From Arthrobacter echini (GTDB lineage: Bacteria > Actinomycetota > Actinomycetes > Actinomycetales > Micrococcaceae), in the NCBI RefSeq assembly GCF_004803505.1, contig NZ_SSWH01000002.1:281305-345304 (forward strand): a DNA stretch of 64,000 nt. Reading direction: 5' to 3'. Position 1 is the stretch's first letter, and every line of letters starts with the position of its first letter. Below the pieces are notes generated by a model. That model was given only the letters and a program-made list of their open reading frames with translations, did no database searches and was not told the origin of the DNA. Positions 2,602 through 8,514 of the stretch are shown one piece after another. The translations under genes were made by a program, and so were the position numbers.

Positions 2602-4215
2602 TCAGTGGTAGAAGTGGCGCGCACCCGTCAGGTACATGGTCACTCCCGCAGCATCGGCGGCGTCGATCACTTCCTGGTCACGGACGGATCCGCCGGGCTG
2701 GACGACGGCGCGGACACCGGCGTCGAGCAGGAGCTGGAGTCCGTCGGCGAAGGGGAAGAAGGCATCCGAGGCCGCAACGGCGCCCCGTGCCCGTTCTGTG
2801 TCGGCGAGCGTGTTCGCGCGTTCGACGGCGAGGCGGCAGGAATCCACCCGGTTCACCTGACCCATGCCGACGCCCACCGAGGCGCCGTCGCGCGCCAGGA
2901 GGATCGCATTGGACTTCACGGCCCGACAGGCCCTCCAGGCGAAGACGAGATCGGCGAGCACGGCGGGCTCGGCGGGCTCGCCCGCGGCCAGGGTCCATGC
3001 GGCGGGATCGTCGCCGTCGGCCTGGAGCGCATCGGCGGCCTGCATGAGCACTCCCCCGGACACCTGCCGGAACTCCACGGCATTCCGGCCGTAGCCCTCC
3101 GGAAGGGTCAGGAGCCGGATGTTCTTCTTCCGGCTCAGGATCTGCACGGCGTCGGCGGAGAACGACGGCGCGATCACGACCTCCGTGAAGATCTCCTGCA
3201 CCGTCTCGGCCATGCCGGCGGTGACCTCGCGGTTCGCGGCGATCACACCGCCGAAGGCCGAGACCGGATCGCAGGCGTGCGCCTTGGCGTGGGCGTCCGC
3301 GATGGCATCGGGGGCGTCGGCCGAGCCGACGGCGACACCGCACGGATTGGCGTGCTTGACGACGGCGACGGCGGGCTCGTCGAAGTCGAACGCTGCGCGC
3401 AGGGCCGCATCGGCGTCCACGACGTTGTTGTAACTCAGGGCCTTGCCGTGGAGCTGGTCCGCCTGGGCGATGCCCGGCGTCGCCCCCTGCTCCACGTAGA
3501 GCGCCGCCTGCTGGTGCGGGTTCTCGCCGTACCGCAGCACCTCGGAGCGCTCCAGCGCCAGACCCGCATAGCCCGGCCAGCTCACCTCCCCGTCCGCACC
3601 TGCGTCTGTGTCGAAGTGCTGAGCGGTCCACGCGGCGACGGCGGTGTCGTAGGCGGCCGTGTGCGCGAAGGCGCGTGCGGCCAGTCGGCGTCGGGCTGCC
3701 AGCTCGAAGCCACCCTCGGTTACCGCCGTGACCACGTCCCCGTAGCCGGCCGGGTCCACGACGACGGCGACCGACGGATGGTTCTTCGCGGCGGAGCGGA
3801 CCATCGCGGGACCACCGATGTCGATCTGCTCGACGACGGCGTCGGGCTCCGCGCCGGAGCGCACCGTCTCGACGAACGGGTACAGATTCACGACGACGAG
3901 ATCGAACGCCTCGATGCCGAGCTCGGTGAGCTGCTCCACGTGCTCGGGGCGCCGACGATCGGCCAGGATGCCCGCGTGGACGCTCGGATGCAGGGTCTTC
4001 ACGCGCCCGTCGAGCGTCTCCTGGAACCCGGTCACCTCGGAGACCTCGGTCACGGGCACACCCGCGGCGGCGATGCGTTGCGCCGTCGACCCGGTGGAGA
4101 CGATCGAGACGCCTGCGCGGTGCAGGCCCTGCGCGAGCTCCTCCAGGCCGGTCTTGTCGAACACCGAGATCAGCGCTCGGCGGATGGGGACACGATCGGG
4201 CTGGTCAGGACTCAC
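2602..4215 (-). CDS. purH: Bifunctional AICAR formyltransferase / IMP cyclohydrolase
   Basis: PurH catalyses the last two steps of de novo IMP synthesis: formylation of AICAR with 10-formyl-THF, then ring closure. The 537 residues show the N-terminal MGS-like cyclohydrolase domain ([47 protein letters not shown]) followed by the transformylase domain ([25 protein letters not shown], and C-terminal [19 protein letters not shown] and [17 protein letters not shown]). The start is a GTG at 4215 with GGAGA five bases upstream. In related genomes purN normally sits immediately upstream of purH. Here they are separated by a DUF559 gene, an MFS gene and corA. Confidence 0.96.
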
Positions 4216-4266: not shown

Positions 4267-4325
4267 GTCGAGATCGCAGACGTTACCGTCCCAGGTCCCG
4301 GGTCGTGGTCATTTCTGCGGTTTCG
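4267..4325. repeat. Imperfect palindrome downstream of the DUF559 gene (left copy)
   Basis: Left arm 4269-4287 (CGAGATCGCAGACGTTACC) can pair with right arm 4307-4325 (GGTCATTTCTGCGGTTTCG) at 14 of 19 positions. The same layout, with the same GTCGAGATCGCAGA block on the left and TCATTTCTGC on the right, recurs at 5344-5402 on the other side of the DUF559 gene. The copy ends seven bases before that gene's stop, so it may also serve as its terminator. Confidence 0.65.
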
Positions 4326-4332
4326 ACGCCGC

Positions 4333-5280
4333 TCACGAGGCGCCGCATGACTCCAGCGCTCTCCGGATCCTGGCAACCGCATCCTGGCGCCGCGAGCCAA
4401 GATGGATCTTCGTGAAGCGCAGGACTGTCCACCCCAGCCGCTGGAGCCGTTCGTCGCGCTCGATGTCGTGGGCCCATTGATGGGCGTCCCTCAGGTGATG
4501 CTCGCCCTCGTACTCGAGGGCGATCCTGCGAGCCCTGTACTGCAGATCCGGTCGGGAGACCCTGCGCCCTTGGTCGTCGAGGATCCACTCGTTCACCTCG
4601 GGCTCGGGCAGTCCCGCGCCGACGATGAGCAGGCGGAGCCGGCTCTCGGCCGCGGAATCGACCCCCGTGCGGAGCAGGGGCAGGGCCTTCCGGGCCAGCG
4701 CGATACCCCGGGCACCGGAGCGTGAGGCAAGCGTCGTCGTGAGCTCCGGCAGCCCCGTCAGCGGATTCGGCAGTGCTGTCGCCGCCGGAAGTCGTGGTGC
4801 ATCAGGACGCCGCAGCAGCGCATCCCCTGCGGCAACCAGCTCCGTCAGGGACAGCTGCGCTGCGAGGTCGCACCAGGTGCGTGCCGGAGAGGTGAGCGGC
4901 ACGCCGTAGACGGTGACGGCGTCCACGTCCCGCAGCCGGGAGACGTGCCCGATGACTCCGCTCCTCCTGGGCTGAGCCGCTCCGGAAGGACGCGTGAGAT
5001 GGATCGGCGCGTCCTGGGACCGGCGAGGCAGGGGCAGACCCCAGAGCAGTGCGGCTGTCGTGTGGCTCGCGACAGTCCCCGGGGAGAGTCCGCCCAGGCA
5101 GGCGACGACGTCGGACAGGTCCGCCCCCGATCCGGCGAACGACCGCACACTCCTCGACTCACGCGTGAACGCGGTGCGACGCAGCACGTGAGGAGGCAGC
5201 CCGAGCCTGCGAGCCGTTCCGACACTGAAGCACCGCGTCAGGTGGAGCCGCAGGAGGGCCTCGGCGTAGGGATCGACCAT
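4333..5280 (-). CDS. DUF559 nuclease-fold protein with AbiEi-like N-terminal half
   Basis: The 315-residue protein has two parts. Residues about 1-190 resemble the winged-helix/AbiEi-like region common in actinobacterial DUF559 proteins (TASHTTAALLWGLPLP-like text, then VYGVPLTSPARTWCDLA). Residues about 220-312 are a DUF559 domain: RPDLQYRARRIALEYEGEHH contains the PD...E-x-E core of a Vsr/PD-(D/E)XK-like nuclease fold, ending in DERLQRLGWTVLRFTKIHL. Biochemistry of this family is not settled; a nicking, repair or defence role is inference. No partner toxin gene is adjacent. The gene is bracketed by two copies of one palindrome (4267-4325 and 5347-5402), which suggests it moves or is maintained as a unit of about 1.1 kb. 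There is no strong ribosome-binding site. Confidence 0.8.
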   Translation of the reverse strand: MVDPYAEALLRLHLTRCFSVGTARRLGLPPHVLRRTAFTRESRSVRSFAGSGADLSDVVACLGGLSPGTVASHTTAALLWGLPLPRRSQDAPIHLTRPSGAAQPRRSGVIGHVSRLRDVDAVTVYGVPLTSPARTWCDLAAQLSLTELVAAGDALLRRPDAPRLPAATALPNPLTGLPELTTTLASRSGARGIALARKALPLLRTGVDSAAESRLRLLIVGAGLPEPEVNEWILDDQGRRVSRPDLQYRARRIALEYEGEHHLRDAHQWAHDIERDERLQRLGWTVLRFTKIHLGSRRQDAVARIRRALESCGAS

Positions 5281-5346
5281 GCACCCATCGTGGATGTTGC
5301 GGACCCGGACGAGGAGTTGTCCACAGCTCTCGGACCGCCGGGTCGT

Positions 5347-5402
5347 CGAGATCGCAGAAATGACCGGTCGTCGCCCGAGCCGCTGTCATTTCTGCTGTCT
5401 CG
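5347..5402. repeat. Near-perfect palindrome upstream of the DUF559 gene (right copy)
   Basis: Arms CGAGATCGCAGAAATGAC (5347-5364) and GTCATTTCTGCTGTCTCG (5385-5402) pair at 16 of 18 positions around a 20-base centre. It shares its blocks with the copy at 4267-4325. It lies between the divergent DUF559 and MFS genes, so it is less likely to be a plain terminator here. Confidence 0.7.
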
Positions 5403-5473
5403 GCGCAACGAAAGGAAGTACGGGACCGTCGCGGTACAGTTCTCGCTGTAAACGGCCCCTCCCCGAAGGCATC

Positions 5474-6860: not shown

Positions 6861-7877
6861 CTAGAGCCAGCGGTTGCGCTTGAACGCCCAGTACAGCCCG
6901 GCACCGAGGGCGAGCATGAGCACGACGGCGAACGGATAGCCCAGGCGCCAGTGCAGCTCGGGCATCAGGTCGAAGTTCATCCCGTAGATGGAGGCGATCA
7001 GGGTCGGTGCGAAGAGGATGGCCGCCCAGGACGAGATGCGCTTGACCTGCTCGCCCTGCGCCAGCGAGGTCTCCGTGAGCCGCGTCATCTCCTCGTTCTG
7101 CCGCTGCGCCACGAGGGTGGAGTGCACGGTGAGGGCATTCTGCAGCAGCGTGCGGAAGGTGTTGACGCGTTCGACGACGCGGATCACGTGGTCCTGCACG
7201 TCGCGCAGGTTCCGCGCGAGCTCGTCATCCACCCGGTACTTCCCGGCGCCGTCGAGCAGTGCGTCCAGCATGTCCTGGAGCGGCTGGGTGGCGCGCTGGA
7301 ACTCGATGACCTCGCGGTGGAGCTGGTAGATCCGGCGCGAGACGTCCGGTGCTCCCCCGAAGAGGTCGTTCTCGATCTCGTCGACGTCGTTCTCGAGTCC
7401 CAGCACCACGGGCCGGTACTCGTCCACGACCTGATCGAGCAGTGCATAGAGGACCGCGTGCGGACCGGCCGCGAGCAGCTCGGGATCGGCCTCCATCCTG
7501 CGTCGGACCACCCCGAGATCCGGCGACTCGGCGTGGCGGATGGTCACCACGAAGTCCTGTCCGATGAAGATGTGCAGCTCACCGAACTCCACCTTCTCCT
7601 CGGCGTCGAGGTAGCGGGCGGGCCGCAGGACGATGAAGAGGGTGTCGCCGTAGCGCTCCAGTTTGGCCCGCTGGTGACCGTTGGCGGCATCCTCGACGGC
7701 GAGCGGATGCAGCCCGAACTCGGCCTCGACGGCGTCGAGCTCGTCGCCGTCCGGGCGGTAGAGGCCGATCCACGCCATCCCGCCGCTTTCCCGCATCAGC
7801 TCGAAGGTGCGGTCGAGATTCTCCGGGGCTATGCGCTTCTTCCCGTCCACGTAGACGGCATTCGTGATCAGGGGCAT
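6861..7877 (-). CDS. corA: CorA family magnesium/cobalt transporter
   Basis: A 338-residue CorA: long acidic cytoplasmic domain, coiled region (RVNTFRTLLQNALTVHSTLV) and two C-terminal membrane helices. The first helix ends in the selectivity motif GMN (IYGMNFDLMPELHW) and the protein closes with the basic KRNRWL tail. It mediates Mg2+ influx as a pentamer. The frame extends upstream into purN, but the ATG at 7877 lies one base after the purN stop (TGAGATG) and begins the family N-terminus MPLITNAVYVDG. Translation therefore looks coupled to purN. Confidence 0.9.
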   Translation of the reverse strand: MPLITNAVYVDGKKRIAPENLDRTFELMRESGGMAWIGLYRPDGDELDAVEAEFGLHPLAVEDAANGHQRAKLERYGDTLFIVLRPARYLDAEEKVEFGELHIFIGQDFVVTIRHAESPDLGVVRRRMEADPELLAAGPHAVLYALLDQVVDEYRPVVLGLENDVDEIENDLFGGAPDVSRRIYQLHREVIEFQRATQPLQDMLDALLDGAGKYRVDDELARNLRDVQDHVIRVVERVNTFRTLLQNALTVHSTLVAQRQNEEMTRLTETSLAQGEQVKRISSWAAILFAPTLIASIYGMNFDLMPELHWRLGYPFAVVLMLALGAGLYWAFKRNRWL

Positions 7878-7878
7878 C

Positions 7879-8514
7879 TCAGGCGCCCTGGCCCGGACCG
7901 GCAGGTCTGCGCTCGGGAAGACGGTCGGGAGCGCGGTCGCCGGCACTCTCCGTGCTCCGGGCGAGGTCAGCGAGCGTGGCGATCAGGAGCCTGCGCTCCT
8001 CGATCTTGATGCGCTCGTGCAGGCTCTGTTCGGTGTCACCGGGCAGAACGGCGACCGGCGCCTGCGCGAGGATGGGCCCGGTGTCGATCCCGGCGTCGGC
8101 GATCATGATGGTGCACCCCGTGACCTTGACACCGTGGGCCAGCGCGTCGCGGACGCCATGGGCGCCGGGGAAGCTCGGCAGCAGCGCCGGATGCGTGTTC
8201 AGGTACCGCTGCGGGAACCGGTCGAGGAACTGCTGGTCCACGATCCGCATGAAGCCCGAGGACACCACGTAGTCCGGGGCGTAGGCCGCGACGGCGTCCG
8301 TGAGCGCCCGGTTCCACGCGGAGCGCTCCGGGTACCGGCGGAAGTCCACCTCGAAGGTGGGGATCCCGGCGTCGTCCGCCCGCCGGACACCCCCGGTACC
8401 GGGGCGGTCCGCTCCGACGGCGGCGAGGGTGACGGGGAGGGAACCGTCGGCGATCGCGTCCATCACGCCCTGGAGGTTCGATCCGCTGCCGGAGACGAGG
8501 ACCACGATGCGCAT
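7879..8514 (-). CDS. purN: Phosphoribosylglycinamide formyltransferase
   Basis: PurN transfers a formyl group from 10-formyl-THF to GAR in purine synthesis. The 211 residues include the N-terminal loop VLVSGSGSNLQGVMDAI, the active-site region LPSFPGAHGVRDALAHGVKVTGCT (Asn and His of the NTHPALLPSF block and the downstream Asp of IADAGIDTGPI). The ATG at 8514 gives the standard start. It is followed by corA with the start codon one base after its stop. purH, usually adjacent, lies about 3.7 kb downstream here. Confidence 0.95.
   Translation of the reverse strand: MRIVVLVSGSGSNLQGVMDAIADGSLPVTLAAVGADRPGTGGVRRADDAGIPTFEVDFRRYPERSAWNRALTDAVAAYAPDYVVSSGFMRIVDQQFLDRFPQRYLNTHPALLPSFPGAHGVRDALAHGVKVTGCTIMIADAGIDTGPILAQAPVAVLPGDTEQSLHERIKIEERRLLIATLADLARSTESAGDRAPDRLPERRPAGPGQGA

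Follow-up and report, generated by a model that had tools for sequence, protein, structure and literature searches.

The 64-kb window, by which the whole stretch of DNA that was analysed is meant, contains a gene for a 315-residue protein located between two palindromes and between purH and an MFS transporter gene. The features at the locus are listed below; the names of purH, purN, the MFS transporter gene and the CorA-like gene were assigned from sequence.

2602..4215, minus strand: purH, left neighbour of the insertion site
4267..4327, no strand: downstream palindrome, 61 bp, 5 bp after the stop codon
4333..5280, minus strand: gene (ORF, 315 aa) for an AbiEi-like and Vsr-like (DUF559 / REase_MTES_1575) protein
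4354..4536, minus strand: Vsr-like nuclease part, residues 249-309, limits by Pfam
4831..5121, minus strand: AbiEi-like part, residues 54-150, match to PADLOC PDLC02249
5345..5404, no strand: upstream palindrome, 60 bp, 64 bp before the start codon
5474..6826, plus strand: MFS transporter, right neighbour of the insertion site
6861-7946: CorA-like gene
7879-8514: purN

An earlier note on this DNA had described imperfect palindromes flanking the DUF559 gene, and these were found to be real. A repeat search recovered the two as direct repeats (33 nt at 79% and 28 nt at 86% identity, spacing 1077-1078) and as inverted repeats (22 nt at 91% and 21 nt at 86% complementarity), and their limits were refined to those given above. 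Because a covariance model of the palindrome family gave only these two places in the window, the repeat occurs nowhere else in it, as the note had also stated. Rfam yielded no convincing match to the palindrome, the one match being at E 0.26.

The product of the 4333-5280 gene generated an AbiEi hit in PADLOC (E 2e-11). In Pfam, it generated hits on DUF559 (2.1e-5, 24.8 bits, above the cut-off of 20.6) and MTES_1575 (6.6e-7, 29.8 bits, below the cut-off of 38.2), and a scan of the protein against NCBIfam gave no match. The top Foldseek match to the whole AlphaFold model (mean pLDDT 94.6) was Rv2827c of M. tuberculosis (E 3e-4, TM 0.37/0.39), an AbiEi-type antitoxin according to the available text of PMC7319586. 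The C-terminal part of the model resembled the catalytic domain of the homing endonuclease I-Bth0305I (3r3p), with a TM of 0.73 on the target but an E value of 0.07. The fold of I-Bth0305I is one that we take to be Vsr-like. Residues E212, Y257, G259, H262, D272 and R275 were invariant among 56 homologs and D245 nearly so, and E212, H262 and D272 presumably map onto the catalytic residues of Vsr. The DUF559 hit above its cut-off, the match to 3r3p and the invariance of these three residues thus place the protein with the Vsr-like / EDxHD nuclease fold, and nuclease activity is likely, given the conservation of the candidate catalytic residues. Six Pfam families were matched among the 56 members at E <= 0.01 (MTES_1575 in 47, DUF559 in 32, AbiEi_1 in 4 and three families in one each), and no Y1/HUH family was among them. 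The codon usage score of the gene was 0.11 vs 0.44-0.56 for four neighbours, all four of which were in the small training set. The nearest named homolog was from A. echini, at 85% identity, in a named-genome scan that may leave out the nearest records; an Arthrobacter is the most likely source of the window.

The unit had been placed by the earlier note between purN and purH, which is wrong: the order is purH, nuclease gene, MFS transporter, CorA-like gene and purN, so that the nuclease gene separates purH from the MFS transporter gene. The empty site does exist, as purH-MFS rather than purN-purH adjacency; of 24 relatives given, 23 had a purH match, and in 19 of these the two genes were adjacent, 127-339 bp apart, without the nuclease gene. 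The exact insertion limits of the cassette cannot be read at this site because the spacers of the empty sites have diverged. The nine closest same-genus homologs (L041-L049) were also located between purH and the MFS transporter gene. In G014 (L202), the purH-MFS spacer, which holds the whole cassette elsewhere, contained a clear solo palindrome of another type, and a degraded solo palindrome of another type was seen by eye in the spacer of G023 (L198). The spacers of G032, G013 and G009 contained inverted repeats of other sequence.

Bracketing repeats and their change with the protein

Homologs at E <= 1e-10 were found in 22 of 38 same-genus genomes, from which 30 loci were taken. The gene was single copy in 16 of these 22 genomes and reached a maximum of four copies. 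From a named-genome scan, the best 80 of 130 relatives were used, and these lay in Arthrobacter, Pseudarthrobacter, Sinomonas, Microbacterium, Agromyces, Curtobacterium, Brevibacterium and others. The 110 loci were reduced to 99 distinct by protein C-terminus, 98 of them with both flanks, and about 320 bp upstream was compared with about 320 bp downstream at a shared repeat score of >= 15. A looser first scoring of the flanks was dropped, as 20 of 68 local controls reached its threshold. RAYT genes are flanked by REPs, and the genes studied here are flanked by cognate repeats in the same manner: the upstream and downstream repeats matched in 78 of the 98 loci, vs 4 of 204 control segment pairs from the same loci and none of 98 shuffles, while the remaining 20 loci had no matched repeat. 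When flanks were clustered by similarity, 39 of 55 clusters (counted by hand) had a matched pair. An inverted-repeat score of >= 14 was reached by 43 of 110 upstream and 63 of 109 downstream flanks and by 3 of 201 random segments, in a count that kept duplicates and some misplaced starts. The claim that the gene is tied to its own palindromes is therefore borne out by the homologous loci. Of the two outcomes that the earlier note had held to speak against it, random scatter of the palindrome without a link to DUF559 and unbracketed genes in all relatives, neither was seen; yet three genomes carry the palindrome without a detected gene (see below).

The repeats differ between lineages together with the protein. 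Between loci, repeat similarity of >= 15 was reached by 1%, 1%, 4%, 49%, 94% and 99% of pairs at protein identities of 20-35, 35-45, 45-55, 55-65, 65-80 and 80-100%, respectively; within loci, it was reached by 80%. Repeats are thus almost never alike between proteins less than 55% identical. The Pseudarthrobacter-type palindrome has a length of 58 bp. Between the end of its upstream copy and the estimated start lie 54-55 or 72-73 bp at 24 of the 27 loci measured; at 23 of 26 loci, the downstream copy begins 4-8 bp from the stop codon, counted from its first base (hand counts in both cases).

The arms of the Pseudarthrobacter-type palindrome covary, with 79 two-sided changes vs 28.4 +/- 4.5 in shuffles, none of 500 of which reached that number. 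For 13 copies from G000, the genome from which the window comes, 42-79 of 500 shuffles reached the observed covariation, which is no clear excess but far above slid pairings. Mismatches in the Pseudarthrobacter set were G.T in 22 and A.C in 29 cases, a ratio that disfavours reading the palindromes as RNA hairpins. T.G mismatches are what Vsr enzymes act on. In the G000 palindromes, few in number and placed in one orientation chosen by similarity, G.T mismatches numbered 27 and A.C mismatches 11; this count covered the two window copies (4267-4327 and 5345-5404) plus 11 other rows of alignment A4, at columns 2-60, 6-56, 8-54, 16-46 and 22-40.

Arm position 10 is G in type-A and A in type-B palindromes. 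The same held for dispersed copies, listed ones rather than a random sample: in five type-A genomes, 77 of 84 arms had G, and in six type-B genomes, 34 of 40 arms had A. Three of the type-A genomes lack a detected gene and were given their type only later; with type A limited to G000 and G010, G was found in 37 of 42 arms. At two sites common to type-A and type-B species, the letters at position 10 differed in the same way. On one reading, older copies become overwritten with the type now current; on another, favoured sites undergo turnover.

Other DUF559 genes were intended as a negative control. DUF559 matches were present in 33 of the 38 genomes of the genus, and the best 30 loci were fetched, of which L323 was dropped as belonging to the first family. 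Despite this role, 23 of the remaining 29 were bracketed too. Many of the 29 proteins are about 280 residues long, and the one that was scanned (L039) had weaker AbiEi matches in its N-terminal part. The repeats at 18 of these loci, 16 direct and 2 inverted, were 24-125 bp long and mostly nested palindromes around the core GGCGTGTC...GACACGC, which had a match in 34 of 38 genomes and, in G000, gave 7 forward and 4 reverse matches vs 1 and 1 for the reversed pattern. The second DUF559 gene of G000 (L039:660-1860, C41) has its own, different bracketing repeats with a weak score of 16.5.

Dispersed copies and signs of movement

The palindrome is not confined to the window. A strict gapped pattern recovered few copies and was replaced by covariance models, with which 17 places, the two window copies included, were found in G000 (34 both-strand matches; 13 of the places were used to build the model). 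Several cognate palindromes therefore lie between genes, as for REPs and REPINs: 14 of the 15 dispersed copies did not overlap a coding-like ORF, and one overlapped a stop-to-stop frame. Five of the 15 followed a stop codon at a distance of 3-7 bp. In the eight genomes whose purH site carries a type-A or type-B gene, the median number of matches was 18, vs 4 in the other 30 of the genus (p 2e-4, kinship ignored); as at most 143-150 candidates were scored per genome, match counts may be low.

A second model, R2, was built from the flanking copies of Pseudarthrobacter-type genes, and 19 of the 28 loci of this type were given for the search. All 19 genomes searched with this gene type gave matches, 21-128 per genome over both strands when the copies flanking the gene itself are counted, and the dispersal of the palindrome family is thus seen in this type as in G000. 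In 14 genomes without that gene type, R2 found none in 10 and 2, 3, 16 and 23 matches in the other four. The G000-type model, R1, generated 1-4 matches in 11 of 23 other genomes, with a best E value of 1.3e-9. R1-type palindromes were present without a homolog at E <= 1e-10 in G005 (one contig; L250-L252), G034 (L246-L249) and G029 (83% complete; L275-L290). Palindromes therefore persist without a detected gene, and those in these three genomes were possibly orphaned by gene loss.

Adjacent to one dispersed copy (G000 C22:208567), 46 bp following the palindrome aligned to the 3′ end of the nuclease gene with a score of 22, vs 14 for the best of 2000 shuffles and 11 for the best at ten other copies. 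This 3′-end relic suggests that a second cassette was probably once present there. Of seven palindrome sites fetched from G010, six have a counterpart among the palindrome sites of G000, and movement is therefore rare.

Loci of the Pseudarthrobacter type have a different site in common, adjoining a purL-like gene and a small conserved gene. A third, solo palindrome near the gene was present in 10 of the 28 loci, whereas a short spacer was found instead in 8 and a remnant, judged by eye, in 2, so that 20 of 28 loci were anchored. The closest empty sites (L084 and L085) had a single TCGA, and filled sites were bounded on each side by TCGA or a near form, a pattern compatible with either insertion and a 4-bp duplication or deletion by slippage. 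Replication slippage alone can precisely delete a palindrome between TCGA repeats, and this presence or absence is therefore no proof of insertion. TCGA ends were rejected as a universal feature, since only 34 of 129 palindromes had TCGA at both ends and 15 of 45 clusters had it at either end.

Palindrome pairs were also seen around other genes. In G000 (L245:791-1617, C11:263230-264113), two palindromes 823 bp apart enclose a 238-aa lipoprotein-like ORF, and in the G010 counterpart the flanks adjoin with one palindrome, about 790 bp with the ORF being absent. In Pseudarthrobacter sp. H3Y2-7 (L092:3907-4666), a 199-aa ORF beside the nuclease gene is bracketed by palindromes. Its right flank recurs in 26 related loci, in 24 of which it starts within about 25 bp of the locus's own downstream palindrome, and the arrangement looks like the capture of cargo. 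Neither the 238-aa nor the 199-aa product had a match in Pfam.

Proposed working, rival explanations and meaning

We consider the gene and its palindromes to be one evolutionary unit, with a probability of roughly 0.6, in which a protein that joins an AbiEi-type DNA-binding part to a Vsr-like nuclease would recognise its own two-armed palindrome of about 60 bp in a RAYT-like manner. Sequence comparison gives the bracketing, the lineage-wise co-change, the dispersed copies mostly of the same type, the empty sites and the 3′-end relic; that the nuclease moves the palindromes would follow by analogy with RAYTs and REPINs. The likeliest reading is that the protein, which would bind its own palindrome, is part of a mobile family of palindromes that follows RAYT-like logic without an HUH transposase.

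In the mechanism that we propose, a dimer of the protein would bind the palindrome as double-stranded DNA or as an extruded cruciform, which would also let the protein repress its own promoter. The Vsr-like domain would then nick or cut at the palindrome, and repair or strand transfer at the break may copy the palindrome, and rarely the whole bracketed gene, into intergenic sites. These targets would often lie just behind stop codons and perhaps be TCGA in the Pseudarthrobacter type. The outcome for the genome would be RAYT-like and the catalytic part homing-endonuclease-like. At its own promoter, an AbiEi protein binds a pair of 23-bp inverted repeats (PMC7319586), and the stretch of DNA on which I-Bth0305I forms a dimer is nearly 60 bp long (PMC3943268). 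Both would be in keeping with a dimer of the protein on a two-armed palindrome of about 60 bp.

A rather unlikely alternative is that the upstream palindrome is the operator of an AbiEi-type autorepressor, the downstream palindrome a second site and the scattered copies a regulon or decoys, with the nuclease fold used otherwise, in repair or defence. AbiEi and Rv2827c do bind such paired repeats at promoters and repress themselves, as far as the available text of PMC7319586 describes them, and the two recurrent distances of the upstream palindrome from the estimated start in the Pseudarthrobacter type would suit an operator. The two-sided covariation without an excess of G.T over A.C in that set likewise indicates dyads in double-stranded DNA. 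However, an operator leaves unexplained the downstream copy directly behind the stop codon, the copies behind unrelated stop codons, the presence or absence at one orthologous site and the gene relic beside another copy.

The gene might also be a selfish gene of the homing type, its nuclease cutting gene-free cognate palindromes into which recombination copies the gene, with solo palindromes as immobile targets. The nuclease part resembles I-Bth0305I, and the palindrome is as long as the target of that enzyme in the available text of PMC3943268. We hold this to be unlikely, since gene copies are few while many gene-free palindromes persist, and since the solo palindrome itself varies in presence.

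That the repeats are a REP-like family moved by another enzyme, bracketing the gene after a past composite move while the protein is inactive on them, is quite improbable. The bracketed 238-aa ORF of G000, absent from G010, and the 199-aa ORF of L092 are in its favour, but dozens of repeat types each accompany the protein family, the other DUF559 genes are bracketed as well, and a foreign mobiliser would not make the repeat type track the protein sequence. Ordinary transcription terminators or chance hairpins around the gene can practically be dismissed despite the five dispersed copies close behind stop codons, as a matching copy is also found upstream of the gene, as the matches far exceed those in the local control pairs and as the Pseudarthrobacter set has no excess of G.T over A.C, contrary to RNA hairpins.

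The unit recognising its own palindrome, as we propose, shares features with several known systems. The earlier note's comparison with REP/RAYT stands as to logic, which the bracketing, dispersal and empty sites fit, but not as to identity: a RAYT is a Y1 HUH transposase, whereas the protein described here is AbiEi-like and Vsr-like with no Y1/HUH family in the Pfam matches of its 56 members. Both systems combine short intergenic palindromes with one dedicated gene present in a single copy, and both are inherited mostly vertically and duplicate slowly (for REPINs and RAYTs, in the available text of PMC8049555). A REPIN is a doublet of REPs, whereas the palindrome here is one two-armed dyad of about 60 bp, and the repeats at other DUF559 genes, up to 125 bp long and mostly nested palindromes, are unlike REPs. 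The EDxHD homing endonuclease I-Bth0305I is alike in catalytic fold (Foldseek) and in its long target of about 60 bp (available text of PMC3943268), but the gene here is not in an intron or intein, its N-terminal part is AbiEi-like, and its cognate sites are dispersed in the genome and bracket the gene. With the type IV toxin-antitoxin system AbiE (AbiEi antitoxin; Rv2827c), it has in common the AbiEi-like part and inverted repeats at its own promoter (available text of PMC7319586); AbiE has an AbiEii (DUF1814) toxin gene alongside, and the neighbours here, as read from sequence, appear to be purH and the MFS transporter gene. Unlike in AbiE, a nuclease is fused, and the palindromes are also downstream and dispersed. 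The Vsr and VsrA (DUF559) mismatch endonucleases, which act on T.G mismatches, are alike in being DUF559 and Vsr-like, but bracketing palindromes, present here, are not mentioned in the available part of PMC12907096, whose main text has no word starting with "palindrom".

A search of the open-access literature for DUF559 with palindrome, REP or inverted repeat returned no title or abstract describing such a bracketing system. The protein belongs to no family that, to our knowledge, owns palindromes. The RepRanger paper counts REPs in an Arthrobacter, and the words "RAYT" and "nuclease" do not occur in its main text as available. We see even odds that the gene represents an undescribed class of bacterial mobile system, in which AbiEi-Vsr (DUF559) nucleases co-evolve with, are bracketed by and spread their own long palindrome independently of HUH-based REP/RAYT, with palindrome "languages" numbering in the dozens across Actinobacteria, with two or more protein families, and with pairs of palindromes able to carry other genes as cassettes too.

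In Arthrobacter and numerous relatives from soil, a palindrome that varies by lineage with the protein suggests a mobile DNA system working in a REP/RAYT-like way with unrelated parts. DUF559 genes are common in these genomes, and the co-evolving partnership of protein and palindrome offers a concrete candidate substrate for them. The dozens of protein-palindrome pairs form a ready collection from which DNA specificity may be deduced from protein sequence. If the proposal is true, it would be a second, independent solution to the problem, posed by REP/RAYT, of how bacteria acquire families of short palindromes.
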